This document shows positions 7,921 through 55,386 of a DNA stretch of 64,000 nucleotides, piece by piece. The notes below the pieces were generated by a model that was given only the letters and a program-made list of their open reading frames with translations, was not told where the DNA came from and did not search any database. Origin of the DNA: Nannochloropsis salina CCMP1776 (lineage: Eukaryota > Sar > Eustigmatophyceae > Eustigmatales > Monodopsidaceae); assembly GCA_004565275.1 (NCBI GenBank), contig SDOX01000168.1:1-64000 (forward strand), written 5' to 3'. Each line of letters begins with the position of its first letter. The stretch's first letter is position 1. Both the position numbers and the translations under genes were made by a program.

Positions 7921-9378
7921 TGGATTCAAACCCTCCCCCTCCCATTCCCAGAGACCTACGTAGGTCCAGATGGAGCTTCCATTAAACACCGCGGCGAGGT
8001 TCTGTGCATAACGGGATATCATATCGACCAGGATGCGTCAGATCGAGCATCGCATGGCGATCCCTCACCAGACATGCACACACGAGGCAACCACCATCGA
8101 GGACAGGGGCATCGTGCACGTTGCGTCATGGCCTGCATCCAAACACGTACCGTGCCATCCAACGAGGACGCGATCGACGACCAGCTACGGGAACCAGCGG
8201 CGGTTTGCTCCGTCCAGGTGGCACCCGAGTTGGTCGACGTATAGATATAGCCTCCATCCACCACGGCGGCAAGTTTTCTGTGCATGATGGGATGGATTAT
8301 CGACCGGATGCGTCAGATCGAGCATCGCATAACAACCATTCACCAGACATGCACACACGATGGGACCACCATCGAGGACAGGGGCATCGTGCACGTTGCG
8401 TCATGGCCTGCATCCAAACACGTACCGTGCCATCCGACGAGGACGCGATCGACGACCAGCTACGGGAACCAGCGGCGGTTTGCTCCGTCCAGGTGGCACC
8501 CGAGTTGGTCGACGTATAGATATAGCCTCCATCCACCACGGCGGCAAGTTTTCTGTGCATGATGGGATGGGTTATCGACCCGGATGCGTCAGATCGAGCA
8601 TCGCATATCAACCATTCACCAGACATGCACACACGATGGGACCATCATCGAGGACAGGGGCATCGTGCACCTTGTGAAATGGCCTGCATCCAAACACGTA
8701 CCGTGCCATCCGACGAGGACGCGATCGACGACCAGCTACGGGAACCAGCGGCAGTTTGCTCCGTCCAGGTGGCACCCGAGTTGGTCGACGTATAGATATA
8801 GCCTCCATCCACCACGGCGGCAAGTTTTCTGTGCATGATGGGATGGGTTATCGACCGGATGCGTCAGATCGAGCATCGCATAACAACCATTCACCAGACA
8901 TGCACACACGATGGGACCACCATCGAGGACAGGGGCATCGTGCACGTTGCGTCATGGCCTGCATCCAAACACGTACCGTGCCATCCGACGAGGACGCGAT
9001 CGACGACCAGCTACGGGAACCAGCGGCGGTTTGCTCCGTCCAGGTGGCACCCGAGTTGGTCGACGTATAGATATAGCCTCCATCCACCACGGCGGCAAGT
9101 TTTCTGTGCATGATGGGATGGGTTATCGACCCGGATGCGTCAGATCGAGCATCGCATAACAACCATTCACCAGACATGCACACACGATGGGACCACCATC
9201 GAGGACAGGGGCATCGTGCACGTTGCGTCATGGCCTGCATCTAAACACGTACCGTGCCATCCGACGAGGACGCGATCGACGACCAGGAGCGTGAGCCAGA
9301 GCCCGTTTGCTCCGTCCAGGTGACGCCCGAGTTGGTCGACGTATAGATAAAGACGTTAAAAGCCACGGCGGCAAGGTT
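7867..9378 (-). pseudogene. Asp-box (BNR) repeat gene remnant, tandem exon-intron units
   Basis: Minus-strand exons 9253-9378, 8977-9103, 8702-8828, 8426-8552, 8151-8277 and terminal 7867-8001 (stop 7867-7869). Each internal exon encodes a sialidase-type repeat: (K/N)LAAV, then IYTSTNSGATWTEQT, RSWSSIASSSDGT. The S-x-N-x-G-x-x-W core is the Asp-box of secreted beta-propeller proteins. Introns of about 150 bp run from GTACGT to CACAG. The first and terminal exons read in phase 0 after DGT, but four middle exons carry an extra A at the acceptor (AG then AAAACTT), which shifts the frame to a stop. The middle units are nearly identical and repeat every 275-280 bp, so the shifted unit was amplified after it formed. 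The 5' end is cut off at the border of the 9385 duplication. Non-functional as it stands unless splicing is unusual. Confidence 0.75.
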
Positions 9379-9994
9379 CTATGCATGATCGAACCACGCT
9401 GCATGCGTTTCCTTGGCCCGAAGACTCTGTTCACTGTTTAGCCCTCCAGAAAAAGCGAGGATTAGAAACACACACACACACACAATCACATATACATACA
9501 GAGGGCTTGTGGAAACGTTTCCAGAACCATCTCATGCGTAGTACATGAGTATTCTCCCCTTCTCACTTTTTACCCGGAAAACTCATCGACGTGTTCTCAT
9601 GGAAACGGGCGGATCTGTTTTTGCAGTCCTTGAGCCCTCTCGCAGGTGTGAGACCTGCTTGTGTACTTGTTTCTTGTTTGTACATCTCTTTCTGAGCAAG
9701 ATGCTGTACCATGCTTACACAATCTCCATGATTCAAATACCTATTGCATTTTGTGCGAATAGAAGTTCTGCTTTACGTGCTGGCTTATCAAACCGAGTAG
9801 TTCGCTGGAATTGGCCTTGGTCCATCTACCGTGATATCAAAATACGCGACTCAAGCGATACACAGCTCATTAAACATTCTAAGAAATGAGCGGATAAAAT
9901 CGACTCGCGCTAATCCTCTCACATATTCGACGCGCCAGCTACACGCAGTGCCCACCAGATCTTCAGCTTTTCTTAAGATCTCCGATATGTGAAG
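9379..9994. promoter_or_regulatory. Upstream region of the AKR-transporter fusion
   Basis: Presumed promoter and 5' leader, duplicated almost unchanged at 16972-17581. It holds a CA dinucleotide run at about 9468-9484. A 114-codon frame starting at 9545 is not retained at the same length in the second copy, so it is not taken as a gene. Confidence 0.4.
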
Positions 9995-11622
9995 ATGGGG
10001 AAAAGACATGTCTCGTACTTCGCGTTCTCCACGTCGCCTGTATCGGGTAGGCCGGCGGCTATACCCCCATCACTCATAGACATCAGCACGTTAAACGCGC
10101 TCCGCGATGCCGAGAAGGTTGCGGATGCGGTGAAGCACGCTTGGTCGAGCGGAGTCGAGTACGTGGACTGCTCATCGGATTCACAGAACGAGAAGCAAAT
10201 CGGCAACGCACTTTCGGGGTTTGATCGGTCGTCCTTCTACGTGGGGTCCAAGCTGTCGTGCTGCGACGCCGCGCCCGAGGACGTGACCGAAGCGTGCAAG
10301 AGATCGATTGCCGAGCTTGGCGTGTCTTATCTAGACAACTACATGATGCACTGGCCTGTGCAGTTGAAGAGCGATTCCAAACCAGTGTCATTGGATGATG
10401 GGGACACATATGAGCTTCTCCAGGACGGCGATATGGACTGCATCATGGCCACTTACGAGGCCATGGAGCGCCTTGTGGACCAGGGCCTTGTGCGCTCGCT
10501 TGGCGTGTCTAACATGGGCATACGAACTTTGAGCGAGCTGCTGTCTCGATGCCGCATCCGCCCAACGGTGCTCGAGGTCGAGATGCACCCGTACCTGGCT
10601 CAGCCAAAGCTGCTCGAGTTTTGCCGCGAGGAGAACATCCACGTCATGGCTAACTCGCCGCCCGGTAAGATGAGGGACGGATATCCAGATGACTCCTCGC
10701 TACTCGATGATCCGATCTTGCTCCGCATCGCCGAGGAAAGTGGCCGCTCGGAGGCTTACACGGATATTCGCCCATCACTCATAGACATCAGCACTTCAAA
10801 CGCGCTCCGCGATGCCGAGAAGGTTGCGGATGCGGTGAAGCACGCTTGGTCGAGCGGAGTCGAGTACGTGGACTGCTCATCGGATTCGCAGAACGAGAAG
10901 CGAATCGGCAACGCACTTTCGGGGTTTGATCGGTCGTCCTTCTACGTGGGGTCCAAGCTGTCGTGCTGCGACGCCGCGCCCGAGGACGTGACCGAAGCGT
11001 GCAAGAGATCGATTGCCGAGCTTGGCGTGTCTTATCTAGACAACTACATGATGCACTGGCCTGTGCAGTTGAAGAGCGATTCCAAACCAGTGTCATTGGA
11101 TGATGGGGACACATATGAGCTTCTCCAGGACGGCGATATGGACTGCATCATGGCCACTTACGAGGCCATGGAGCGCCTTGTGGACCAGGGCCTTGTGCGC
11201 TCGCTTGGCGTGTCTAACATGGGCATACGAACTTTGAGCGAGCTGCTGTCTCGATGCCGCATCCGCCCAACGGTGCTCGAGGTCGAGATGCACCCGTACC
11301 TGGCTCAGCCAAAGCTGCTCGAGTTTTGCCGCGAGGAGAACATCCACGTCATGGCTAACTCGCCGCCCGGTAAGATGAGGGACGGATATCCAGATGACTC
11401 CTCGCTACTCGATGATCCGATCTTGCTCCGCATCGCCGAGGAAAGTGGCCGCTCGGCGGCGCAGGTGCTCCTCCGCTGGGGCATCCAGCGCGGCAGGAGC
11501 ATCACTCGCAAGACGCTGTCCCAGTCTCTCATTGACGAAAACAAGGACGTGCTCGACTGGTGCCTCTCACGGGACCACATGTCGCGCCTGGACGCCCTTG
11601 GCAAGGGTTCGCGCTTGACATC
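9385..11622. repeat. Segmental duplication, copy 1 (2.24 kb)
   Basis: Sequence from ATGATCGAACC at 9385 to TTGACATC at 11622 recurs in direct orientation at 16972-19206 with few differences. It holds about 600 bp of upstream sequence plus the whole doubled AKR module. Beyond 11622 the two copies diverge completely, into different fusion partners. The left border cuts the BNR remnant. Confidence 0.95.
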
Positions 11623-13087
11623 TTTTTGTTTTTTCCCCGGGTCACTGGATGCGGCTCCCTCGGCCTCTGCGAAAGACGATTGTGGAGTATTGGAGTGGCT
11701 GGCGATCGAGTCCGTGGCAACTGTCTCCATCTTTGCCGCGATCCTCGGATACGATATTGGCGTGATGAGCGGCGCTCTTTTGGCCATGAGTCGTGACCTC
11801 GACTTGTCCACGTGGCAGCAGGAGATCGTCGTGGGATGTCTTGACTTTGTGAGCGCTGCAGGTGCCATCGGTGGGGGCGCATTGTACGTCAATCATGGCA
11901 TGGTGCGCTGCGTTCGGCTCGCTATTCTCTCGTACGCCGCCGGTATGATCATCGTCGCTGCCTCCTTTTCGTACGTCCAGGTATTCATCGGCCGCATCGT
12001 CGGTGGCATCGGGGTTGGCCTTGGGTTCGCCATATGCCCCCAATACATCGCCGAAATCTGCCCGCCTGCGTGGCGCGGCATCATGGTGTCATGCTTCGAG
12101 ATCAGCATGAACCTCGGATTGTGCAGTGGATACGTTGCCAACCTCGCGCTCGAGACTCTTGCGGACTCGACCCGATGGCGTCTCCTGATGCTTATCCCTC
12201 TTGTCCCGACCTCTTTCATGTACTTCATTAGCGTGCCTCGCCTGCCGGAGAGCCCGAGGTGGCTTATGGCTGACGGGAGGGAGGCGGAGGCGAGCGACAC
12301 GCTCGTCCGCTTGTGTGGTGAGGCGGCGGCCGGGCCAACCATGCTCGAGATAAAGGAAGTCATCGCGCTTCAGGACAATTACGATCATGAGGGCCAGAGA
12401 CACGGCGCGTCACCGGGGTCGAGGTGGGCGGCGCTCTTTACGGGACCCGTGGCGCGTCGTGCGCTCTTCATTGGCGCGGGCACCGCGATATTCCAACAGG
12501 CGAACGGGTTGGAGGCGGTGGTGTACTACGTACCTAAGGTTTTGGACGCAGCGGGCGTCACGAGCGAGCACGCGCAACTCAAAGCCGCCGCGCTCGTGGG
12601 CCTTTGCAAGACCTTATTCATTGGCGTCGGTCAGTTCAGCGTGGACAAGTTCGGTCGAAGGGTCGTCATGCTCTCAAGCATCTCGGCGGTGACTTGCTCG
12701 CTATTGGTGCTGGCGTGGTGTATCGGGAGCGGGAATGCGGAAGCGGGAGTGATACTGACAGCATTATGCGCATTCATGGCATCATTCTCCCTTGGGGTCG
12801 GTCCAGGGACATGGGTCATAACCTCAGAGATTTTTCCGCTGCCGATTAGGTCGAAGGGGACGTCCTTCAGCATGGCAGCCAATCGAATCACAAGCGGCAC
12901 TGTCGCGATGACTTTCCTGAGCCTCTCCGCATGGCTGGGCGTCGGTGGGGCGTTCTTCCTCTTTGCGGGAGTCAGCGCCGTGCACTTTCTGTTCACGTTC
13001 TTCATGCTTCCAGAGACGCGCGGAAAGTCGCTCGAGGAGATTGAGGCAATGCTCAGCCAAGGAAGCAGATCGTACGAGCGCTTCTGA
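9995..13087 (+). CDS. Fusion: doubled AKR-like module plus MFS sugar/cyclitol transporter
   Basis: One intronless frame of 1,030 residues from ATG 9995. Residues 1 to about 545 are two aldo-keto reductase-like modules. The second is an almost exact 705-bp tandem copy (unit starts 10066 and 10771); only it keeps the C-terminal segment (AQVLLRWGIQRGRSITRKT). In each module the AKR tetrad is partly present: Asp (VDCSS), Lys (VGSKL) and His (MMHWP), but the catalytic Tyr position of DCxxxYxNE is Ser (DCSSDSQNE). From about residue 550 to the end is a full 12-helix major facilitator of the sugar porter family (GRIVGGIGVG, PESPRWL, IFQQANGLEAVVYY, PETRGKSLEE), close in style to inositol/hexose transporters. 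No Met precedes helix 1 after the junction, so the transporter depends on the fused start, or on an intron I cannot see. An N-terminal soluble domain of this size on an MFS carrier is unusual. Confidence 0.8.
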   Translation: MGKRHVSYFAFSTSPVSGRPAAIPPSLIDISTLNALRDAEKVADAVKHAWSSGVEYVDCSSDSQNEKQIGNALSGFDRSSFYVGSKLSCCDAAPEDVTEACKRSIAELGVSYLDNYMMHWPVQLKSDSKPVSLDDGDTYELLQDGDMDCIMATYEAMERLVDQGLVRSLGVSNMGIRTLSELLSRCRIRPTVLEVEMHPYLAQPKLLEFCREENIHVMANSPPGKMRDGYPDDSSLLDDPILLRIAEESGRSEAYTDIRPSLIDISTSNALRDAEKVADAVKHAWSSGVEYVDCSSDSQNEKRIGNALSGFDRSSFYVGSKLSCCDAAPEDVTEACKRSIAELGVSYLDNYMMHWPVQLKSDSKPVSLDDGDTYELLQDGDMDCIMATYEAMERLVDQGLVRSLGVSNMGIRTLSELLSRCRIRPTVLEVEMHPYLAQPKLLEFCREENIHVMANSPPGKMRDGYPDDSSLLDDPILLRIAEESGRSAAQVLLRWGIQRGRSITRKTLSQSLIDENKDVLDWCLSRDHMSRLDALGKGSRLTSFCFFPGSLDAAPSASAKDDCGVLEWLAIESVATVSIFAAILGYDIGVMSGALLAMSRDLDLSTWQQEIVVGCLDFVSAAGAIGGGALYVNHGMVRCVRLAILSYAAGMIIVAASFSYVQVFIGRIVGGIGVGLGFAICPQYIAEICPPAWRGIMVSCFEISMNLGLCSGYVANLALETLADSTRWRLLMLIPLVPTSFMYFISVPRLPESPRWLMADGREAEASDTLVRLCGEAAAGPTMLEIKEVIALQDNYDHEGQRHGASPGSRWAALFTGPVARRALFIGAGTAIFQQANGLEAVVYYVPKVLDAAGVTSEHAQLKAAALVGLCKTLFIGVGQFSVDKFGRRVVMLSSISAVTCSLLVLAWCIGSGNAEAGVILTALCAFMASFSLGVGPGTWVITSEIFPLPIRSKGTSFSMAANRITSGTVAMTFLSLSAWLGVGGAFFLFAGVSAVHFLFTFFMLPETRGKSLEEIEAMLSQGSRSYERF

Positions 13088-13659
13088 GTAACCTGTCCAC
13101 TCGACAAGTATTATTAAATTCATACCCCATATCCAATACGCTTCGAATTCGGTGCCCCTGAGGTCTAGACTCGAATCCGGTGGAGGACTGCAGGATCGCC
13201 GCGAAGGGAGACGTAGACTCTGAGTTGCAGTGAAGCACGACAATGGGCATCGAACTTCGGAAGTCAAAGTGCAACGACTATAGAGCTGGACAAATGAAGG
13301 AGCGAAGGGATATCACTCGCGATGCGGGGAACTATGAGGACCCCCATAGGGGAACGGGATCTATGAGGACTCCCTTAGGGGCATTCTGAGCACACCCTCA
13401 AGGGAACTGTGAGGACCTCCTCAGGGAATTTGTCAGGACCTCCATTTACTTTGAATCACGTGTTTTCTTCATTGGAATTCCTGTACTGGCTAGCGAACAA
13501 ACCTACGACACATTTGAATGATTTCACGATCAATGGCAGTCAGTATATTTGCTCGCAATCTCTCTCTCGCAAGTGGCTTGCTCGTCGCTTTGCTCCCCGA
13601 AAAGGTATTCAGAGATACCCTGAAACTCTGTGCGCCGTCTCACTGACTCTAACCACCTT
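13088..13659. repeat. Intergenic with degenerate 30-35 bp tandem repeats
   Basis: Between 13326 and 13445 a motif of the form (G)AACTATGAGGACCCCCATAGGG recurs four to five times, imperfectly (GATCTATGAGGACTCCCTTAGG, GAACTGTGAGGACCTCCTCAGG, TTTGTCAGGACCTCC). This is the shared 3' region of two converging genes. No gene is seen. Confidence 0.6.
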
Positions 13660-16581
13660 TCACTGCGTCGAGCCCAACACGTAGTCGATGCCGGCCTTGA
13701 TGAAGGCGGCTGTGTGGTCACCGGGCCCATCGGCTGAGTAGTCGGAGGCGAAGTGGCCGAGGCCGCAGTAAAAGACGCGGGCGGCCTTGGCGCCCAACTT
13801 GCGCGACCAAACAATCGGGTGGTTAGCGCCCATACTGCCGCCCTGGTAGGTCGACTCGTCAACGGTGGCCACAACGGTGACGTCGCCAGCAACGCCGAAG
13901 GCGACAGGGTCCAGCCGAAAATTGAAGAACTCATCGTAAGTCTCGTACGTGTCCGGGATGGACCTGAGCGGCGTGTCCATAGCGTACTCGTCGCTAGCTG
14001 GGCGCCGAAGAGCTACCCGTCCTTTCTGCGGCGACGGGTGGTTGACGAAATGCGCACCAAAGACATCCTGGATAAGCTTGCAGGTCGCGCCGAGCGGCGT
14101 GGCTCCCGAAGCATCGCGGCCGTCGAGAAAGCTTGCGAGGCACGCGTGGAGTCCAAGGACCGGCTTGCCCATCTCGAGGTGCCGGGAGAGAGCCTCACGC
14201 GCAGGGTCAAAAATCTGCCCGGAGTTGTTGACCATCACGATGAGGTCGAAAGCAGGGGCAGTTGGCAATTCTAGCTGAGCCGCGTCATCCGAAACGACTG
14301 GCTTGTATCCGCGTACAGCCAGCTGCAGAGCCACAAAAGTGGCGGCCGCCGGTGTGGAGTCGTGAACGTAGTCGCGCATCGCTGTGTAGATGAGGGCCAC
14401 CTTCTTGCGGTCGGCCGACTTCTCTGCAACGAGCGAGCCGGCCGAGTCCTTGGCGAGCGAGACGAGTGCAGGCGCCTGCGGCAGCTTCGCCATTCCTTTC
14501 GCCGATAGCTGGGGCAGGTAGATCGGCCCAGTGAAGGGCGCCGTGTTGAGGCGGAGCAGCTCATCCGGGTCGGCATCGCGGGGCGGAATGGCTGACGCAC
14601 CCCAGCGCGCGAAGTCCTGCGCCTTGGATGCAAGCAAGGGGTGGGCTTCAGGTCTGTGCGAGATGTAGTAGGCAGCGAATTCGGCCAGCCGCCGGCCGAG
14701 ACGACGGCATGCCATCTGGTCGACAGGATCGCGCGGTGCCTTGGCCACTTGCACGCCATAATGCATCGTCGTCTTAAACGAGACATAATCGGTAATCCCG
14801 ATGCAGGAGAAGCCAAAGTTCATCATGATTGCGTTCATTGCCATGCACACCAGCTCGGCCCCGCCGCCAGTGCCGCCGACAGACGAGAAGGAGCAACCGA
14901 CCCTGCCCTCGAGCTTGGGCCAGTACCCATCCTGAGACAAATCGTCCCAAAACTTCTTCATCCGCCAAGAGATGCAGCCAAGGTTGGTTGGGCTGCCGGA
15001 GGCGACGCCGTCGGCCCAGTACACGTCGGCGAACGTGGCGGGCACATCATGCGCCCGGACACCCTTGGACGTGGCGTCCCAGTGGTTGTCGGGGCCGGGC
15101 ACCGTCCGGAGCCGCACCTCGACGTGGTCGAGCTGCCGGGCGCCCTCAGCCACGAGCCCAGCCATCTGAGCGGTGCAAGTAGTGGACGAGTCGTACAGTA
15201 CCAAAATCTTGGTTGTCCGCGGCGGGCGCTTCTTCGATAGCGCGTTGGTGGATACGTGCAACTCGACCGTCTCAGAGATTGCGTCCAAGGCCGGAACCAG
15301 CCGTGTAAAATGCGATGTCTCAAAGTGGGCATCCAGATGGGACTGCGACGCCCATCGCTCGACGATGCAAAACGTGTCGGGCGCGACGGAGGACCGGACA
15401 AACGCGTACTCCTCACATCCATCCTCGTGCCACGTGGCCGCTGCCAGCTCGTCGGCCATCGCCAGCCACTGCCGCTGGCTAGCTGATGGTACCCGCTTCA
15501 CGATGGTCACGTGTACCTGTGCGCCACCCGCCGACGTCGCCGGCGCCGCCACCTGTTCGGCGGCGGACTCAGCTAGCGCGTCAGGGGCGGAAGCAACGTC
15601 CTTTTCAGTCGACACTGGCCGCTGGTCGGTGAGCAAATCAACCTTCGGCTCCCACCCCAAGTGGCGACGACCGGGCTCGAGGTCGTAGAGAGGGTCACGC
15701 TCGTGGCCGGGCACCTCGTAGTAGGACATGTCGATCGTGGCGGCAGTCTCATTGCCATACCAAGAAGCCATCAACTCGGGGACGGTTTTCTTAGTGTACA
15801 ATTTGGGCGCCACGCACGCCACTTTCCGGACACCGGCAGCGTGTGGGGCGCGGACGGCCGCCAGCAGGCAGTCGATTTGATCGGACAGCGCGACAGAGCA
15901 GAGCGCCGCCTCAGGGAACTTCTCGGGGTTGGCCGTCGTGTATGGCACGGGGGTGCAGACGGCCGGGGGCACTGGCCACGACAACTGCTTCCCGTCAACC
16001 ACCCCGTCCAGGTGCTGAACTTTAGGTGGGTCGGTGACGGTGTTGCCGATGCGGACGACGATGAAGTCTACCTGCCGGTTCTTCTCCTCGACCGCCAGCA
16101 GGTCAATTAGTGTCTCGCACGCATGCTTGGCGAATGCGTACGGCCACGGCCCGCCCTCGTGAGGATGGTCGACCGCCATCGGCAGCTTCCGTGGCGGGTG
16201 TGTCGGCGCACACGTGCCGATGCATGCGACGGACGAGGCGAACACGATCCGCCGGCAGCCAGCATCAAGAGCTGCCTGGACAAACCGGTGGCTCCCAGCA
16301 ATGTTCGTGTTGACGGCCTGCTCGACCGAGCACCAGCCCAGCGTGCCGGCAAGGTGGACCGCCACGTCGGGCCGGTCGATGCCCTCGAGCGTGAAGTCGG
16401 GCGAGGATATGTCTGCCTGCACGGCGGTCACCCCGGGAACCGTGCATTTCCGCCGGTTGACGCCGGTGACCCGGCAGCCGCGGGCGACGAGCGACCGCGC
16501 GAGCTCACCACCCATCCATCCTGTCGTGCCCGAGACGAGCACGTGCACTGGACCGATCGAGTTGCTGGAAGTGGCGGTCAT
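13660..16581 (-). CDS. Four-domain fusion: NAD-epimerase, ABM, WrbA-like flavodoxin, ThuA-like
   Basis: Intronless, 973 residues from ATG 16581. Domain 1 (about 10-315) is an NAD(P)-dependent epimerase/3-beta-HSD type Rossmann fold with GTTGWMGG, ASSVACIG and the catalytic YAFAK. Domain 2 (about 350-445) is an antibiotic-biosynthesis-monooxygenase/ABM ferredoxin-like fold (VHVTIVKRVP to SHFTRLVPALDAI), a family that often acts on quinols. Domain 3 (about 455-655) is a flavodoxin-like NAD(P)H:quinone oxidoreductase of WrbA type (ILVLYDSSTTCTAQMAGLV, GVASGSPTNLG, SFSSVGGTGGGAE). Domain 4 (about 715-970) is ThuA-like (ALIYTAMRDYVHDS, LGLHACLASF, HPIVWSRKL, VFYCGLGH), a fold linked to trehalose and sugar use. 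The order suggests oxidation of a sugar or ring substrate with electrons passed to a quinone, but the reaction is not known. GC-rich and intron-free, unlike genes beyond 23 kb. Confidence 0.82.
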   Translation of the reverse strand: MTATSSNSIGPVHVLVSGTTGWMGGELARSLVARGCRVTGVNRRKCTVPGVTAVQADISSPDFTLEGIDRPDVAVHLAGTLGWCSVEQAVNTNIAGSHRFVQAALDAGCRRIVFASSVACIGTCAPTHPPRKLPMAVDHPHEGGPWPYAFAKHACETLIDLLAVEEKNRQVDFIVVRIGNTVTDPPKVQHLDGVVDGKQLSWPVPPAVCTPVPYTTANPEKFPEAALCSVALSDQIDCLLAAVRAPHAAGVRKVACVAPKLYTKKTVPELMASWYGNETAATIDMSYYEVPGHERDPLYDLEPGRRHLGWEPKVDLLTDQRPVSTEKDVASAPDALAESAAEQVAAPATSAGGAQVHVTIVKRVPSASQRQWLAMADELAAATWHEDGCEEYAFVRSSVAPDTFCIVERWASQSHLDAHFETSHFTRLVPALDAISETVELHVSTNALSKKRPPRTTKILVLYDSSTTCTAQMAGLVAEGARQLDHVEVRLRTVPGPDNHWDATSKGVRAHDVPATFADVYWADGVASGSPTNLGCISWRMKKFWDDLSQDGYWPKLEGRVGCSFSSVGGTGGGAELVCMAMNAIMMNFGFSCIGITDYVSFKTTMHYGVQVAKAPRDPVDQMACRRLGRRLAEFAAYYISHRPEAHPLLASKAQDFARWGASAIPPRDADPDELLRLNTAPFTGPIYLPQLSAKGMAKLPQAPALVSLAKDSAGSLVAEKSADRKKVALIYTAMRDYVHDSTPAAATFVALQLAVRGYKPVVSDDAAQLELPTAPAFDLIVMVNNSGQIFDPAREALSRHLEMGKPVLGLHACLASFLDGRDASGATPLGATCKLIQDVFGAHFVNHPSPQKGRVALRRPASDEYAMDTPLRSIPDTYETYDEFFNFRLDPVAFGVAGDVTVVATVDESTYQGGSMGANHPIVWSRKLGAKAARVFYCGLGHFASDYSADGPGDHTAAFIKAGIDYVLGSTQ

Positions 16582-16971
16582 CACGATGCGACGTGGGTGT
16601 GGAAGACGCCGGGGTGTTGCGGGAGGAGCGACGGATTATGAGGTCCGTCAAGTAGCTGATGAGGATAACCTCGCTCTGTCAAGTATTGTAGTATGTTTAT
16701 ATATTCTCGTCTGTCAACGCGACGTGTCGCGCGGTGTGCCGAGGTCTACCGGGTGCGTGTTGCACGTTCGCTTCTCCTCACTCTTCGTATTGTGCCTGCC
16801 TCGTGCCGCGGAAGACGCACAACGCGTTCGCTCCGGTGCGAAAGCGGGTGTCCAAGTACATACAGCACTGTGTTGTACAAAGTGTCGAGATGAGTCGACA
16901 CGTATTTGAGGCGGGTCGGATGAAGTACCGCATGAACAGTATGTGAAAATATTGGTAGATAAAAAATGACT
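16582..16971. promoter_or_regulatory. Spacer upstream of the four-domain fusion gene
   Basis: 390 bp between the divergent fusion gene and the second duplication copy. It presumably holds the promoter of the 13660-16581 gene. No other feature is recognised. Confidence 0.35.
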
Positions 16972-19206
16972 ATGATCGAACCACGCTGCATGCGTTGCCT
17001 TGGCCCGAAGACCCTGTTCACTGTTTAGCCCTCCAGAAAAAGCGAGGATTAGAAACACACACACACACACAATCACATATACATACAGAGGGCTTGTGGA
17101 AACGTTTCCAGAACCATCTCGTGCGTAGTACATGAATATTCTCCCCTTCTCACTTTTTACCCGGAAAACTCATCGACGTGTTCTCATGGAAACGGGCGGA
17201 TCTGTTTTCGCAGTCCTTGAGCCCTCTCGCAGGTGTGAGACCTGCTTGTGTACTTGTTTCTTGTTTGTACACCTCTTTCTGAGCAAGATGCTGTACCATG
17301 CTTACACAATCTCCATGATTCAAATACCTATTGCATTTTGTGCGAATAGAAGTTCTGCTTTACGTGCTGGCTTATCAAACCGAGTAGTTCGCTGGAATTG
17401 GCCTTGGTCCATCTAGCGTGATGTCTAAATACGCGACTCAAGCGATACACGGCTCATCAAACATTCTAAGAAATGAGCGGATAAAATCGACTCGCGCTGA
17501 TCCTCTCACATATTCGACGCGCAAGCCACACGCAGTGCCCACCAGATCTTCAGCTTTTCTTAAGATCTCCGATCAGTGAAGATGGGGAAAAGACATGTCT
17601 CGTACTTCGCGTTCTCCACGTCGCCTGTATCCGGTAAGCCGGCGGCTATACCCCCATCACTCATAGACATCAGCACGTTAAACGCGCTCCGCGATGCCGA
17701 GAAGGTTGCGGATGCGGTGAAGCACGCTGTGTCGAGCGTTGTCAAGTACATGGACTACTCATCGGATTCACAGAACGAGAAGCAAATCGGCAACGCACTT
17801 TCGGGGTTTGATCGGTCGTCCTTCTACGTGGGGTCCAAGCTGTCGTGCTGCGACGCCGCGCCCGAGGACGTGACCGAAGCGTGCAAGAGATCGATTGCCG
17901 AGCTTGGCGTGTCTTATCTAGACAACTACATGATGCACTGGCCTGTGCAGTTGAAGAGCGATTCCAAACCAGTGTCATTGGATGATGGGGACACATATGA
18001 GCTTCTCCAGGACGGCGATATGGACTGCATCATGGCCACTTACGAGGCCATGGAGCGCCTTGTGGACCAGGGCCTTGTGCGCTCGCTTGGCGTGTCTAAC
18101 ATGGGCATACGAACTTTGAGCGAGCTGCTGTCTCGATGCCGCATCCGCCCAACGGTGCTCGAGGTCGAGATGCACCCGTACCTGGCTCAGCCAAAGCTGC
18201 TCGAGTTTTGCCGCGAGGAGAACATCCACGTCATGGCTAACTCGCCGCCCGGTAAGATGAGGGACGGATATCCAGATGACTCCTCGCTACTCGATGATCC
18301 GATCTTGCTCCGCATCGCCGAGGAAAGTGGCCGCTCGGAGGCTTACACGGATATTCGCCCATCACTCATAGACATCAGCACTTCAAACGCGCTCCGCGAT
18401 GCCGAGAAGGTTGCGGATGCGGTGAAGCACGCTTGGTCGAGCGGAGTCGAGTACGTGGACTGCTCATCGGATTCGCAGAACGAGAAGCGAATCGGCAACG
18501 CACTTTCGGGGTTTGATCGGTCGTCCTTCTACGTGGGGTCCAAGCTGTCGTGCTGCGACGCCGCGCCCGAGGACGTGACCGAAGCGTGCAAGAGATCGAT
18601 TGCCGAGCTTGGCGTGTCTTATCTAGACAACTACATGATGCACTGGCCTGTGCAGTTGAAGAGCGATTCCAAACCAGTGTCATTGGATGATGGGGACACA
18701 TATGAGCTTCTCCAGGACGGCGATATGGACTGCATCATGGCCACTTACGAGGCCATGGAGCGCCTTGTGGACCAGGGCCTTGTGCGCTCGCTTGGCGTGT
18801 CTAACATGGGCATACGAACTTTGAGCGAGCTGCTGTCTCGATGCCGCATCCGCCCAACGGTGCTCGAGGTCGAGATGCACCCGTATCTGGCTCAGCCAAA
18901 GCTGCTCGAGTTTTGCCGCGAGGAGAACATCCACGTCATGGCTAACTCGCCGCCCGGTAAGATGAGAAACCGACATTCTAATGACTCCTCGCTACTCGAT
19001 GATCCTGTCTTGCTCCGCATCGCCGAGGAAGCTGTGCGAGCTGCGCAGGTGCTCCTCCGCTGGGGCATCCAGCGCGGCAGGAGCATCACTCGCAAGACGC
19101 TGTCCCAGTCTCTCATTGACGAAAACAAGGACGTGCTCGACTGGTGCCTCTCACGGGACCACATGTCGCGCCTGGACGCCCTTGGCAAGGGTTCGCGCTT
19201 GACATC
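16972..19206. repeat. Segmental duplication, copy 2 (2.24 kb)
   Basis: Direct copy of 9385-11622. The copies differ by scattered substitutions, a cluster within 17728-17758, and a block near 18966-19046 where copy 2 is 3 nt shorter and clearly diverged (MRNRHSNDSS against MRDGYPDDSS). That block lies only in the second AKR module and suggests patchy gene conversion of the rest. The 7.6 kb spacing between direct copies makes loop-out or unequal exchange possible. Confidence 0.95.
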
Positions 19207-20485
19207 GGTTTTGCCATCTATGTGCGACCTTGATCGTGACTCAGAGAACTCCGCGGGCGCTGGCCACCCCGTCTCGCAGCCACACCGCACTCCCTGTACC
19301 ATGGACAAGAATGGGGGTCTCCGCAACCGATTCGAGCGGCCTGGAAAATATCTGAAAACAGATATCCTCGTGCAGCGCGGCGCACTCTCTGACCTGGCAC
19401 GCCTCGGTAAATCCATCATTCCCGAGGAATCGCACGGTTCGGCGAATTACCTTATCACCGACTCTGTCGTCGACGCGCTATACGGTGACATCGTGCTAAA
19501 CGGCCTCAAATCTGCCGGCCTTGACATGACCAAGATCGTCGTCCCAGCAGTGTCTATGGACGAATCTGGCGAGCCGTCTACTGAGCCTAACAAGAACGGC
19601 GCCATTTTCAACGCGTGCGTTGATCGTGTGCTGGGTAACGGCATCTCTAAGCACTCATGCATTATTTCGCTTGGGGGCGGCGTTATCAACAACCTGTGCG
19701 GCGTCATTGCAGCCACCTTGTACCGAGGCATCAAACTGGTGCACTTTACGACCACATCCATGGGGATGCTGGACGCCGCCATCGACTTCAAGCAGGCTTT
19801 CAACCATCCTTGCGGAAAGAACCTCGTCGGCGCGTACTACCCAGCCGACCTGATCGTCATGGACCCCGAGTGCCTCAAGACGCTCAGCAATCGACACATG
19901 CTCAATGGAGTTGCCGAGGCGCTCAAGCACGGCCTCACCCAATCCTGGGAACTCACGTCTGCTATTGTTGAACCTCTGCGCGGCGACTCAGCGCGCCTCG
20001 GGGACAGTGAGTACCTCGAAACCCTGTGCAAGGAAACCATCGAGATCAAGGTGCCGACGCTGACTCATTACAAGGAGTCCGACTTCAATGAAATGGTGCC
20101 CCAGTATGGTCACGCAGTCGCACATGCCGTGGAACACCTTTCCTGGGAAGAAGGTCAAGTGCCGCTCCTCCACGGTGAGGCCGTCGCAATCGGAATGTGC
20201 GTCACCGCCGAGTTGGGCCACCTCCTTGGCCTTTGCGACAAGTCTGTCGTCGACCACCACTACGACCTGGTGGGTATCACTGGCCTGCCCTGCAACGTGC
20301 CAGATACCATGAAGATCAACGATATCCTTCATGCCATGACTTACGATAAGCACTTCATCGGCAATCCCTGCATGGGTTTCTGCAAGGAAATTGGTGTCAT
20401 GGCAAAAAACAAAGATGGCTCCTACGCATTCTCCGTCGAGATGGAGCCGGTACGTGAGGCTCTCCAGTTAAACATGAGCAAGTGA
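17582..20485 (+). CDS. Fusion: doubled AKR-like module plus sugar-phosphate cyclase
   Basis: Intronless, 967 residues from ATG 17582. Residues 1 to about 541 repeat the doubled AKR-like module of the 9995 gene, again with Ser at the catalytic Tyr position. A new partner follows, with its own possible ATG at 19301 (residue 574): a full-length 394-residue sugar-phosphate cyclase of the dehydroquinate synthase superfamily. Diagnostic motifs are SLGGGVINNLCG (NAD site), RGIKLVHFTTTSMGMLD, GKNLVGAYY, GVAEALKHGL, GHAVAHAVEH and LLHGEAVAIGM (metal ligands Glu and His). GGGVxxNxxG together with RGIKLVH is closer to the 2-deoxy-scyllo-inosose synthase type than to true dehydroquinate synthase (GGGVxxDxxG) or the EEVS type; this assignment is by eye. 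Such enzymes turn a sugar phosphate into a carbocycle. It may be translated as the fusion or separately from 19301. Confidence 0.8.
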   Translation: MGKRHVSYFAFSTSPVSGKPAAIPPSLIDISTLNALRDAEKVADAVKHAVSSVVKYMDYSSDSQNEKQIGNALSGFDRSSFYVGSKLSCCDAAPEDVTEACKRSIAELGVSYLDNYMMHWPVQLKSDSKPVSLDDGDTYELLQDGDMDCIMATYEAMERLVDQGLVRSLGVSNMGIRTLSELLSRCRIRPTVLEVEMHPYLAQPKLLEFCREENIHVMANSPPGKMRDGYPDDSSLLDDPILLRIAEESGRSEAYTDIRPSLIDISTSNALRDAEKVADAVKHAWSSGVEYVDCSSDSQNEKRIGNALSGFDRSSFYVGSKLSCCDAAPEDVTEACKRSIAELGVSYLDNYMMHWPVQLKSDSKPVSLDDGDTYELLQDGDMDCIMATYEAMERLVDQGLVRSLGVSNMGIRTLSELLSRCRIRPTVLEVEMHPYLAQPKLLEFCREENIHVMANSPPGKMRNRHSNDSSLLDDPVLLRIAEEAVRAAQVLLRWGIQRGRSITRKTLSQSLIDENKDVLDWCLSRDHMSRLDALGKGSRLTSVLPSMCDLDRDSENSAGAGHPVSQPHRTPCTMDKNGGLRNRFERPGKYLKTDILVQRGALSDLARLGKSIIPEESHGSANYLITDSVVDALYGDIVLNGLKSAGLDMTKIVVPAVSMDESGEPSTEPNKNGAIFNACVDRVLGNGISKHSCIISLGGGVINNLCGVIAATLYRGIKLVHFTTTSMGMLDAAIDFKQAFNHPCGKNLVGAYYPADLIVMDPECLKTLSNRHMLNGVAEALKHGLTQSWELTSAIVEPLRGDSARLGDSEYLETLCKETIEIKVPTLTHYKESDFNEMVPQYGHAVAHAVEHLSWEEGQVPLLHGEAVAIGMCVTAELGHLLGLCDKSVVDHHYDLVGITGLPCNVPDTMKINDILHAMTYDKHFIGNPCMGFCKEIGVMAKNKDGSYAFSVEMEPVREALQLNMSK

Positions 20486-23387: not shown

Positions 23388-26300
23388 ATGCGTCTCTCGT
23401 TCAGCTTTTTCTTGGCCGTCGCGGCGACCACCCAGGCTTTTGTCCCTGGTCCCGTCCGCCTCCCTTCAAGAGGCGCGTCTCTTATGGCACCAAAAGTCGG
23501 GCGTACAGCTGGCTGGAGCCGCCTCATGGCCATGAAAGATGTCGGTGTAGGGATAATCGGTGCCGGTCGCATTGGCATCGTGCACTTGGAAGCTCTAGCT
23601 GGCTGGTAAGACGGAAGATCGTGGAAAATGTATAAGAAGGACAAGGACGGATTCAATTTGGTGGAGATAACATGAATGCAAGAGAAAGTTCTATGTAAAT
23701 TCGATGTTTATGGGAGTATCAACTCCAAGGCATGTCAGAGCGAGTCTTGAAGTCACGATTTTTTCTCTTACATTCGTATCCATCCTATCACGCAGCCCCA
23801 GCGCCATCCCGGTTATCATCTCCAACCCCACTGTGGCGAAGGCTCAAGAGGCAGCCGTCAAATTCAATGTCAGGGAGTTCACAGACGACGCCATGAAGGT
23901 GAGGACAGGCAACTGAAGGGGGGCGGTGGTGAGGCTTTCGTGTGGGTATTGGTTGATGGACGCTTGCTCGGAAGCAGCAGCTCATCCGCGTCCGTGGTAT
24001 CCCTAATGTCCCTTCCTGCAGGTGATCCAGCACCCAGACGTAGATGCTGTGTGGATCTGCTCCCCCTCTCAATATCATGCCGACCAGATCAAGGTGATGG
24101 GGAGGGTACTGGAGGTCGTGGTGGTCGGCGAGATGGGAGCATGCAGGGGCAGCCGGCGGAGGGAGGGTGGATGGGAGAAGAGAGTGGGAGTGGCGGGAGG
24201 AGTCTGATTCGATGTCTTACTTGTCCATCGAGAACAGGCCTGTGCAGCGGCCGGCAAGCACGTTTTCTGCGAGAAGCCCATTGCGACGGGTATGTGTTGG
24301 AGGTGGCGCCCTCGCTTCTCGCCTCGTTCTCCTCCTCTGTCTAGTCCCATCGCCTCCCACCTTCCCAGCTCATCACTCCTTCCGCCCCCTTACCGCGTCC
24401 ATTGCTTATCTTTCAGGCCTTGCTGAGACGATCGAGGCCATCAATACCTGCCGCGAGGCGGGCGTCAAGCTCATGACAGCCCTCCAGCGCCGCTTCGACC
24501 CGAATTTCGCCCGAGTCAAGCGAGCCATTCTCGAAGGAGAAGTCGGTGGGTGTGGAGGAGGGAAGGCACGGGAGAATGTGAGGCTTGGCTCCCGACAAGA
24601 CTGAGAAGACGGAGGTGAAGCGAAGCAAGGGGTCGCGGATGGGGCAAGGGCACCCAAGCTCGGGCATTTTGGACAAGGCGCTTCCTCTCCCTTTCTCCAT
24701 CCCTCGATTCCGGGATTACCCATTTGTCCTCTTCCCCGCCATTACTTTCTTTCCTCATGCCAGGTAACGTGGTCAGCGTGAAGCTCACGTCCCGCGACCC
24801 CTCCCCCCCGCCCTTCGAGTACGTCCGAGGCGGGGGCGGCATCTTCAAGGTAGGAGGCGGCTGGTTCGAAAGGCCCGTCTACGCCCGACACTCCTTCCAG
24901 AAGCTCCATCTCACGCCCCTACTTCTCCACAGGACATGGCGGTGCACGACCTTGACATGTCTCGCTTCCTGATGGGCACCGAGCCCGAGTCCATCCTGGC
25001 GCTGGGCTCGTGCCACATCGACGAACGGATCGGCTCCCTCCCCGGCGCCGAAGCCTTCGACACGGGTGAGGGGCAGACCGTTCCCTCCCTTTCTCCCTCC
25101 CTTCCTCCCTCCCTCCCTCCCTCCCTCCTTCGACCCTTCCACGCATGGGTGGAAAGCAGCATTGGTGGTACTTGTTTGTGGCTGCAAGAGTGGAGTTTGA
25201 GCCCCTGCGAAAGACACTTACCTTGCCCTCCTTCCCTCCCTCCCTCCCTCCCCAGCTGTGGTCATCGTCAAGTACCCGGGCGGCAAGACCGCCACCATTG
25301 ACGTGTGTCGCCAGGCCCCGTACGGCTATGACCAGCGGGCGGAGGTGAGGAAAGGAGGGGAGGGCGGGAGGGAGGGCGGGAGGGAGGGCGGGAGGAAGGA
25401 AACAAAAAGGGAGTCATGGGGGCAGACAAACGAAACTGAAAATAGCGTTTCTGTTCCCTTTCATTCCTATTGCTTCCTCGAAGTGTCGCATCCGCCCGTG
25501 TATGGCACCGCCTTCATTATCCTTCCCTTCGTCCCTTTCCTTCCCCCTGCCTCCCGCCCTCCCTCCCTCCCTCCCTCCCTGCGCGCCAGGTTTTGGGCCT
25601 GAAGGGCATGATTGCCACCGACAACATGTACCCTAACACGGCACGCATCTTCACCAAGGTAAGAGCAGAGGGAGGAGGGACAGAGGCCGGAGCGACCTTT
25701 TCGAACGTCGGCAGACGTCCTGGAGCCGACCGTGCCTCATCGCCCCCTGCCCTTGGTTTGCGATATCTTGTCTCTCCCCTGTCTTCTCCCCTCTTCCAGG
25801 ACTCGACGCGTAACGCGGACCTGCCCTACGACTTTTTCATGTCCCGCTACAAGGACGCCTATCTGCAGGAGACTAAGGTCGGAGGGGGGGGAGAGGCGGG
25901 TGTGGGGGAATGGAGAGTGGGGTAGGGAGGACCAAGGGGCGGATCGGAGGAGGGGTTTGGAGGAGGCGACGGAAAATAGAAAAGGCGATCGGCGGGAGGT
26001 GACTCATCTCCACCCTTTCATGGCCCCTTACACCGCCCCTCCTTGCTTGTCCCTGCCTCCAGGAATTCGTCAAGTGCCTCTCAGAGGACGGACCGGTCCC
26101 CTGCACAGGGGAGGACGGCCTCATCGCCCTGGTCATGGCCATCGGTATGGAGGGAGGGTGGGAGGGCGGGGGGAAGGACGGTAGCGGAGGGGCCGTCGGG
26201 CTTGAAAGATGCATGCGTAGGATCAATGTTTGCAGACTGGGCGCCGAAGCCTGCCTGGGAGGAGCCTATGATGAGGGAGGCACGTCTCTAGGCCCATGGA

Positions 26301-27160
26301 CCCTTCCATCCCCCCCCCCTTTCCTCCCTCGCTTTTCATTCGCCTTCGTTTCCCCCTTTCTCTCTTCGAACAGCGGCGGAGAAATCGGCTCTTGAGGGCC
26401 GGTGGGTGGATTTCAAGGAGATTCCCATCAACGCCATCCATTGCGATCCCTCGGGGACACACTGCGAGCTGAACGAGATGGAGGTAGGCGAGAGAGCGAG
26501 AGGGAGGGCGGACGGCAAAGAGAGAGAGAAGAAGCACGGGGTGGGTGGGGTCGTAAGTCTGCCGGGAGAAGAGTAGTTCTGCGGGCGTGTGGGGCTGTCC
26601 TGGCCCCTGTGAGCCGACCGCCGTGGCCGTGCTCGCCCGAGAGTGGGTACCGAGCTCGGGGACGCAGACTGTTCTCGCCTAGGTCCCGCCTTTTTCCTCG
26701 CAGGCCCCCTCTCCTCTGCCGTCCCGCCCGTGCCGCAAGCCGCTCACCGGCTGGGCCGTCCCCTCCCTTCCCTCCTTCCCCTCCTTCCCTCTCCCCCCCT
26801 CCTCCTCGCCCCAGGCTTCATCGATGAACGGAGGCCGGAAGCGGGAGGCGGTTAAAGGATGGATTAAGGACGCCGTGTCCTTCATAAAGAAGGAGACGGC
26901 CACAGGGGCCTGAAGAGAGAGAGAGGTGGAGGGTGAGCCGGAGGAAGAAGAGGAGGGCCAGGACGTCGCCGCCCCCTGTGAGCCCACGCTTCTGCTCTTT
27001 TCTTCCCGTACCTGACCGCGCCACCCGCCCCTTCCTACCCCCGCCACAGGCACCGTCGCCGTCGTCGGGCTCCTGGCTCAAGGACGCGGTCTCTTTCATC
27101 AAAAAGGCCGACGAGGAGGCAGCGGCTGAGGACATCAAAGAAAAGGCCAAGGCGTTCTGA
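23388..27160 (+). CDS. Inositol 2-dehydrogenase-like (Gfo/Idh/MocA), probably plastid-targeted
   Basis: Exons 23388-23605, 23796-23898, 24022-24093, 24238-24289, 24417-24545, 24764-24849, 24933-25065, 25256-25344, 25590-25658, 25800-25877, 26063-26144 and 26374-26483, then one of two last exons: 26815-26913 or 27050-27160. The product is 439 or 443 residues. NAD-binding GIIGAGRIGIVH lies at about 56-67, the EKP motif with catalytic Lys144, and DMAVHDLDMSRF at 221-232 with His225, the signature of inositol 2-dehydrogenases. The N-terminus (residues 1-17 hydrophobic, then TTQA|FVPG) resembles the bipartite signal plus A|F motif of complex plastids. Introns are short, GT-AG and TCCC-rich. The two last exons encode related tails (WIKDAVSFIKKE and WLKDAVSFIKKA), so alternative 3' ends or a tail duplication are likely. 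Other Gfo/Idh/MocA sugar dehydrogenases remain possible. Confidence 0.87.
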
Positions 27161-53800: not shown

Positions 53801-55386
53801 AGCGTGCGGGGGCTGGCGGCGAGGACGGTGGAGGAGGCGAAGCGGGTGTTGGAGGAGGGGGAGGGGGAGGTGCAGCGGCTAGGGCAAGACGCAGAGGAGA
53901 GGAAAGAGGCCTTGGCAACGGCGCTTCAGGCGTGGGAGGAGCTGATCGCCAAACTGGTGGCGCTTCCCTCCTCTCTCCCCGCCCTGGCTCTGGAGGGGGA
54001 GGAAAGGGAGGGTGAGACCCCTTCCCTTTCCTCCGTCGAGCCATATGATGCTAGGGCACGGGCGCAGGCAATGTTGCGGGAGGTTGGGGAGCTGGTGGAG
54101 GACTTGCGGAATATGGGGGAGCGGACGCAGGCGGAAACGGAGGCTTTAGAAGGGGCGATGCGGACGGCTGGCGGAGCAGGAGGCTCAGAGGAGAAGGCAG
54201 GCGACGCGGCGGTGGAGGAGGGAAGGGGGGGGGGGGGATGAGGAGGGAGGAGGCGGAGGAAATGATTGGGAGGCTGTTGCGGGAGGAGGGGCTCTTAAAG
54301 GACCTGGAAAAGGCACCGCGCAAGGTCGGGAGGGAGGGCGAGGGGGAGGGTGGGGGCCAGGGCAGGCTCAGGAAGGCATTGGTGGCGGAGGTACAGAGGG
54401 CTGTGGCCGAGAGGCTGAGGCAAGAGAGGGAGGAGGAAAGAGAGAGAAGCCTGGGAGTGGACTATGCGGCCCGCTATAATCATGCGCAGGTGGTGCGGGG
54501 GTGGGCTTACACCACGCCACCGTTTTTGGCGCGAGAACCAACAAACGTGGAGGAGGAGGAGGAGGAGGAGGAGGAGGAGGAGGAGGAGGAGGAGGAAGAG
54601 GGGAAAAAGAGAAGGGAGGAGGGCACACGGTTGCTCTTGAATTTTCCCCCCGAGATGGCGATCAGCTCGTCCATGCTCTGGGGGCACTGCTACGCCCTCC
54701 CCGTCCTCCCTCGCTCCCATCCCCCCGCCCTCACCATTCGCCTGGCCTCGCCCTTGAAACGCGTGACCGCCTTGAGCCTCAGCCACTACCCTTACCTCGA
54801 CCATCCGCTTCCTGAAGAGGGAGGGAGGCGGGGACAAGGGGGTGAGGAGAGGACGATCAAAGGTGTGGCCCCGCGGGAGGTGGTGTTGTGGGGATTGCCC
54901 AAAGTCAGAAGCAAGGTGAGGGGGGGAGCGAGGGGCTGGGAATGGTTAGGAAATTTCACCTTTACTGTGGCGGTGCCGTTTCAGACGACTCAAATTTTTC
55001 CGATTGAAGCAAGGAAAGTGGGAGAGGAAGAAGGGGAGGAAGGGGTGGGAGGGGAAAGGTCCTTTGAGGGGGTGCGATTAGAAGTGCTTTCGAACCAGGG
55101 TCATCCGGACTACACGTGTTTGTACCGCGTGGGAGTGTATGGGGAAGGAGTGGAGGGAGGGAGGGAGGAAGGGAGGGTGGCAGGGCGGTTGAGAAGGGTG
55201 TTGACGGAGTGGTTCGAGATGGGGAAGGACATGATAATGGACGTCAAGGAATGGGTTGATGGGGTCTTCGAGGAGGCGAGGGAGAGGGAACGATGGGCGG
55301 CAGAAGGGGAGGAGGACGGAGAGGGGGAGGAAGAGGAGGGGCCGGGCGGAAACGTTGCCGTTGAGCCCTTAAATGGGTCACTTTGA
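50868..55386 (+). CDS. SUN-domain protein (nuclear envelope, LINC complex)
   Basis: The first block (50868-51823) encodes a basic, nuclear-localisation-rich N-terminus (MVSKRRRRQ, VLKKRRG, ASKKKRSGR). An intron 51824-52102 follows, then 52103-52639 with one transmembrane helix (LLGLGSLLLFLLLVFLW, about 52207-52257) and charged helical sequence. After intron 52640-52834 comes a long coiled coil (52835 to about 54237) and the C-terminal SUN domain (about 54460-55380): GWAYTTPP, PPEMAISSSMLWGHCYAL, LTIRLASP, VTALSLSHYPYL, FQTTQIFP, VRLEVLSNQGHPDYTCLYR. This order is that of Sad1/UNC-84 proteins of the inner nuclear membrane, SUN domain in the lumen. Translation changes frame four times. Three changes sit at poly-G runs (51248-51258, 53655-53664, 54225-54237) and one in a GGGA/G7 stretch near 53350-53400. 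Homopolymer errors in the assembly are the simplest cause. Confidence 0.85.

Follow-up and report, generated by a model that had tools for sequence, protein, structure and literature searches.

A sugar-phosphate cyclase of a broad algal family, joined to an aldo-keto reductase module in a rearranged subtelomere of Nannochloropsis salina

Carbocycle chemistry is best known from bacterial natural products, and the described systems closest to the one considered here are the sugar-phosphate cyclases (SPCs) DOIS (BtrC, PDB 2d2x/2gru), EboD, and the gadusol and mycosporine cyclases EEVS and DDGS. EEVS has been described in vertebrates and two algae (PMC4426668) and an EboD clade in eustigmatophyte plastids (PMC5133447). 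Here we analyzed a 64,000-nucleotide stretch of the Nannochloropsis salina CCMP1776 genome (the window; C41:1-64000, contig SDOX01000168.1, of a 26.5-Mb genome in 103 contigs), in which an initial annotation had marked three large genes as a possible new cyclitol system. One of them, gene 3, encodes a doubled aldo-keto reductase (AKR) module followed by an SPC, and this SPC, which lies here in a freshly rearranged subtelomere, belongs to a broad family of algal enzymes with no description in the searches made. Reading of the sequence and Pfam confirmed all three open frames with the domains proposed for them:

9989-13087 (first ATG 9995), plus strand: gene 1, AKR-AKR-sugar porter open frame of 1032 codons (Pfam), a probable chimera
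13660-16584, minus strand: gene 2, four-domain open frame of 974 codons (Pfam Epimerase, ABM, FMN_red, ThuA)
17576-20485 (first ATG 17582), plus strand: gene 3, AKR-AKR-SPC open frame of 969 codons (Pfam)
17654-19213, plus strand: doubled AKR module of gene 3, with Ser for the catalytic Tyr in both copies (alignment)
19301-20485, plus strand: SPC domain of gene 3, 394 aa (Pfam DHQ_synthase N and C)

The frames are free of introns, as the initial annotation had it, but extended open frames are seen at resident loci as well: two sugar-porter loci have frames of 638 and 697 codons, and two light-harvesting loci have frames of 246 and 232.

The cyclase clade and its reductase partners

Searches with the SPC found 263 homologues at the fused size, with the 8000 best candidates scored, and 534 at single-domain size, the best 120 being listed in each case. 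References were nine SPCs from annotated records, for which a plasmid search (115 records) was the source, one further Streptomyces SPC and a DOIS part. The residue table comprised 65 rows and the tree 62, with P0048, P0147 and P0104 in the table and not in the tree, and P0194 and P0204, chosen and then missed by the motif cut, in neither; a second tree additionally left out BtrC, EboD, DDGS, one 3-dehydroquinate synthase (DHQS) and P0079. In the 62-row tree the family of the gene 3 SPC formed one clade (97/90) joined to DOIS (100/99), a relation that stood at 99/94 in the second tree after several long branches had been dropped. Within it, 33 eukaryote-type rows (those with a eukaryote name and unnamed ones interspersed with them) formed one clade (100/99) among bacterial rows; at least ten tree rows have odd composition. 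The initial annotation named domain trees with each part beside ordinary algal genes as a refutation, and for the SPC this holds by half: it lies in an algal clade, and that clade is itself nested among bacterial rows.

Beyond its sister position, the SPC resembles DOIS in the Lys-Gln motif and in lacking the DHQS arginine, but the two are only about one-quarter identical, and the SPC is fused to AKR, has His for Asn after Lys197 and has Gln for Glu at the Asn268 position. EboD, from eustigmatophyte plastids and bacteria, shares the superfamily, the eustigmatophyte link and the lack of an assigned product, whereas it stands far off in the tree on a long branch and has the ebo operon genes as partners. 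EEVS and DDGS belong to the same superfamily but to a different branch with a different fingerprint, and no AKR lies beside their three references.

Most rows of the residue table carry a family fingerprint of Lys-Gln, Lys-His, Glu for Arg264, Gln for Asn268 and Asp-Lys-His, where the numbering is that of DHQS, in which Arg264 and Asn268 belong to the substrate site. Ala stands at the Arg264 position in P0085, P0086 and P0095, which also end differently, P0104 is gapped, and P0147 has Tyr for Asn162; P0048 is an SPC with many catalytic residues replaced. The gene 3 domain keeps the two-domain fold and the metal- and NAD-related catalytic residues of the superfamily, and its AlphaFold model (pLDDT 94.9) matches DHQS, DOIS and ValA over 350-358 residues. 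Judged from its sequence, the gene 3 cyclase belongs to an SPC clade that is sister to DOIS and not nested in it. A protein search of the genome with the SPC gave a single match.

Fusions of this kind had been thought peculiar to this genome, a view that did not hold: AKR-SPC fusion is present in 41 of the best 120 of the 263 homologues at fused size, including Nitzschia inconspicua and a eukprot transcript, and the four-domain gene 2 is found in other algae. Matches listed at single-domain size include Prymnesium parvum, Porphyridium purpureum, Entomoneis paludosa, Chrysophaeum taylorii, Salpingoeca rosetta, Rhodomonas salina and a Pavlovales strain, among others, so that named members of the family span diatoms, haptophytes, a red alga, pelagophytes, a cryptophyte and a choanoflagellate. 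In the tree, fused forms are interspersed with unfused ones, and a few unfused rows break off inside the AKR (P0003, P0133). Of 41 fused proteins examined, 33 have all four columns of the AKR Asp-Tyr-Lys-His tetrad readable, and 28 of these keep it intact; P0001, P0009, P0014, P0028 and P0039 depart from it, and P0014 may be misaligned. By eye, P0002 contains two tandem SPC copies, and P0079 is an SPC relative fused to a GHMP kinase-like domain.

Many bacterial relatives (many of P0049-P0103) belong to the same clade and are nucleotidyltransferase-SPC fusions, in which the nucleotidyltransferase replaces the AKR and an SDR follows in P0052, P0055 and P0062; the few with names are Parcubacteria/Patescibacteria (P0055, P0062, P0085) and Myxococcales (P0086). 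A genome scan for relatives reduced 37 pattern matches to seven bacterial loci encoding one, and all seven have an SDR within about 4 kb of it (on the opposite strand in L027), with glycosyltransferases nearby in six, part of the neighbours having been scanned. That this SPC is repeatedly paired with a reductase, of whichever type, is the chief reason to propose cyclization and then reduction. Loci L021-L026 are bacterial glycosyltransferase clusters with SPC and SDR, possibly for cyclitol-containing glycans. A phage search with the SPC returned 15 records, all below 60% identity, the four annotated under the match being 3-dehydroquinate synthase, and a viral-contig scan gave 29 pattern matches, none of them a relative.

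A recent duplication and the intervening gene 2

The AKR module common to genes 1 and 3 is a single segmental duplication:

9385-11628, plus strand: copy A, about 600 bp of 5' flank and the doubled AKR module, 97.95% identical to copy B
16972-19213, plus strand: copy B, 97.95% identical to copy A
about 11723-13051, plus strand: Sugar_tr domain of gene 1 (Pfam)

The identity extends across 2245 bp with the 5' flank included, and genome searches found the flank at two places and the AKR module at two near-identical places. The duplication boundary coincides with the transition from AKR into porter (gene 1) or cyclase (gene 3). Beyond the repeat end, the tail in gene 3 remains alignable to aldehyde reductase, which makes gene 3 the likely parent and gene 1 the likely chimera, probably formed by duplication of the 5' flank and AKR module upstream of a sugar porter. 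The porter part scores as an MFS sugar porter (TIGR00879, 281 bits against a cut-off of 237.8), with its closest resident paralogue 37% identical. The doubled module joined to transporter and cyclase, as initially described, is visible in Pfam (PF00248 at 212.5 and 199.6 bits), but it reflects one duplication, and the first AKR copy in each gene is truncated, ending before the last (C-terminal) part of the domain. In P0001, a 733-aa protein from a JGI source, the SPC is 100% identical to that of gene 3 and the AKR is single; the doubling may be particular to the strain, of recent date or a fault of the assembly. Between the four AKR copies there are 4-21 differences in 660 bases, and those in gene 3 are bunched, with seven in 17729-17757 and nine in 18967-19007, as if by gene conversion with a diverged template or through a sequencing fault.

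Gene 2 lies between the two copies, its domains assigned by Pfam and comparison with structure chains:

16036-16542, minus strand: SDR-type epimerase
15295-15516, minus strand: ABM
about 14644-15213, minus strand: WrbA-like flavodoxin
13714-14397, minus strand: ThuA

All four domains of the proposed epimerase-ABM-WrbA-ThuA order were recovered, but the name WrbA fits loosely, as that part scores 57.8 bits against the TIGR01755 cut-off of 132.5 and has the flavodoxin 2ark as its best solved chain; ThuA is well above its cut-off (PF06283, 94 against 33.4 bits), and the SDR YxxxK is kept by eye. Gene 2 has one match in this genome. A wider search gave 18 proteins, ten with all four domains by Pfam (P0212-P0218, P0220-P0222); P0219 aligns over its full length without FMN_red being listed, P0223-P0228 are shorter or missing a domain, and P0229 is a weak match over 23%. 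BLAST identity was 98% for P0212, 74-75% for P0213-P0215, 65% for Prymnesium parvum, 60% for Chrysotila carterae, 51% for Pelagophyceae CCMP2097 and 44% for Aureoumbra, the four-domain form thus recurring in haptophytes and pelagophytes. In the tree the window gene and P0212 stand together with P0213-P0215 adjoining and Prymnesium next, which may point to a haptophyte-like source.

Proposed pathway and competing explanations

We propose, with a probability of about 0.58, that gene 3 encodes a cyclase, of an SPC clade undescribed in the searches made, that makes a keto-carbocycle, which is reduced to a cyclitol, and that gene 2 acts on the same intermediate. Like DOIS, the cyclase would oxidize a sugar phosphate, probably a hexose 6-phosphate, by means of bound NAD, eliminate the phosphate, re-reduce the product and close the ring to a keto-carbocycle, whose ketone a reductase joined to or near the SPC would turn into a cyclitol. 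Because the fused AKR of this alga is without its catalytic Tyr, reduction here would fall to the SDR part of gene 2, which has an intact SDR motif and probably acts on the cyclase's intermediate, or to a neighboring Gfo/Idh/MocA enzyme. The frames, their domains, the duplication, the clade, its fingerprint and the recurrent pairing are direct observations, while substrate, product, the sequence of steps, the part played by gene 2 and the way gene 1 arose are inferred from them. What survives of the new cyclitol system initially proposed is a complete cyclase next to DOIS and a plausible pathway, of which the searches made met no description; the idea of import, ring formation and redox as one set is unsupported, because the porter fusion came with the recent 2.2-kb duplication and the AKR Tyr is lost. 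Likewise, we met no description of an AKR and 3-dehydroquinate synthase fusion in algae in a literature search that had most subscription journals out of its reach. If cyclitols are indeed made, algal osmolytes would gain a candidate gene from this family, and carbocycle chemistry a eukaryotic branch.

Several observations weigh against this proposal. Ser replaces the catalytic Tyr in all four AKR copies of the window and in P0001, and the cofactor Arg is Leu in the two window copies long enough to include it; with the C-terminal part missing from the first copies as well, the AKR of this alga is unlikely, on its sequence, to have a normal reductase role. The approximately unbiased test rejected one clade for eight AKR-fused rows, a group picked after the tree (p=7e-45). 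Three of the seven bacterial loci are closely related to one another (Burkholderiaceae); the four scanned SDRs are of a generic kind, under every curated cut-off shown, and the bacterial SDRs may have a part in different glycan steps. In both trees DOIS sits on a long branch, and Gln in place of its Glu at the Asn268 position means that the substrate may differ; DHQS is the highest structural match, above DOIS. Linkage of SPC and gene 2 in two other algae is probable from equal contig sizes, the contigs themselves being unseen (P0144 and P0215 both listed with a longest contig of 5453, P0188 and P0221 with one of 10665, all four from one source). From the data gathered, we know of no activity for this SPC clade.

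A narrower form of the proposal sees in this clade the ring-closing enzyme so far lacking for algal deoxy-cyclitol osmolytes such as 1,4/2,5-cyclohexanetetrol; it is tentative, and we would not expect it to be right. Hexose 6-phosphate would become 2-deoxy-scyllo-inosose, water loss across C5-C6 (by a dehydratase, perhaps gene 2) would give a 1,2-diketone with CH2 at C2 and C5, and two reductions by AKR, SDR or Gfo/Idh would yield cyclohexane-1,2,4,5-tetrol. On paper, the cyclohexanetetrol skeleton and the trans 3,4-diol agree with this scheme, the chemistry of which we infer throughout. Cyclohexanetetrol is counted among diatom organic osmolytes in a paper that cites work on Chaetoceros and Nitzschia ovalis (PMC5334607), and another reports its putative identification in Isochrysis galbana (PMC7998644). 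No gene for algal cyclitol osmolytes was met in the literature searched, most subscription journals lying outside its reach.

Sedoheptulose 7-phosphate as the substrate and a C7 cyclitol of the valiolone or gadusol type as the product, as with EEVS and DDGS, are unlikely for the SPC: it falls outside the sedoheptulose 7-phosphate cyclase branch in both trees, keeps His275 and Lys250 where three sedoheptulose 7-phosphate cyclase/DDGS references have Pro and Met, and shares the genome with a separate SPC on C56 that looks EEVS/DDGS-like by eye. The latter (C56:14965-15544; L029, L030) is intron-split.

The recent 2.2-kb duplication, the truncated first AKR copies, the lost AKR Tyr and the adjoining subtelomeric repeat would also suit subtelomeric debris, in which duplication, chimera formation and partial decay have left frames that do little for this alga. 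We consider this rather improbable, in that all three frames (969-1032 codons) are still open, their GC content at third codon positions (GC3) of 0.70-0.78 falls inside the 0.59-0.82 of 13 resident frames, catalytic residues are kept in the SPC and in the SDR part of gene 2, and a 98%-identical gene 2 protein is present in another source.

A diverged DHQS of the shikimate pathway is very improbable. Homologues named in their sources are often called 3-dehydroquinate synthase, the best structural match is DHQS, and an ordinary DHQS was not found in the assembly, where intron-split exons could escape the search; the active site argues against the name, with Glu and Gln in the gene 3 SPC at positions where Arg264 and Asn268 are absent from 53 of 53 readable family rows, the aroB score is 196 against a curated 305 (a cut-off that the DOIS reference also fails to reach), and the tree places the SPC with DOIS. 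Artefact and plain DHQS fit poorly, as does private bacterial transfer into this genome, which is unlikely given the place of the SPC in an algal clade and the resident-like GC3.

Subtelomeric surroundings

The contig start is a chromosome end, with the telomere repeat opening the window and the three large frames directly inside a subtelomeric repeat:

1-86, no strand: telomere repeat (ACCCTA)14 (repeat finding)
8000-9375, no strand: 275-bp subtelomeric tandem repeat (TRF)
23388-26415 (approximate limits), plus strand: exon-rich Gfo/Idh/MocA (inositol-dehydrogenase-like) gene with a plastid-type leader (six-frame reading by eye)

The 275-bp repeat has 65 matches genome-wide, some at most 3 kb from base 1 of C23, C26, C70 and C78, and its minus strand at 8000-9375 reads as a protein repeat with YTSTNSGATWT. 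The inositol-dehydrogenase-like gene noted earlier was found again, starting about 2.9 kb from gene 3, by eye and with a weak Pfam match below cut-off on one exon; it is a neighbor and a candidate member of the cluster. A Pfam scan of eight of the nine other window open frames of at least 250 aa and of two exons of the Gfo/Idh region found PT repeat and Sad1_UNC above cut-off and CCD97-like and Gfo/Idh/MocA below it, with no Pfam match in the remaining scanned frames; an Rfam scan of the window had no match above threshold. The Sad1/UNC match lies in the C-terminal part of the frame at 54238-55386 (plus strand). The genome as a whole gives 34 light-harvesting matches, some of them parts of one gene, and for one of these proteins VCPI-2 of PDB 8zo9, a Nannochloropsis photosystem entry that points to a probable Nannochloropsis-like eustigmatophyte host, gives a match of 455 bits over 223 residues.

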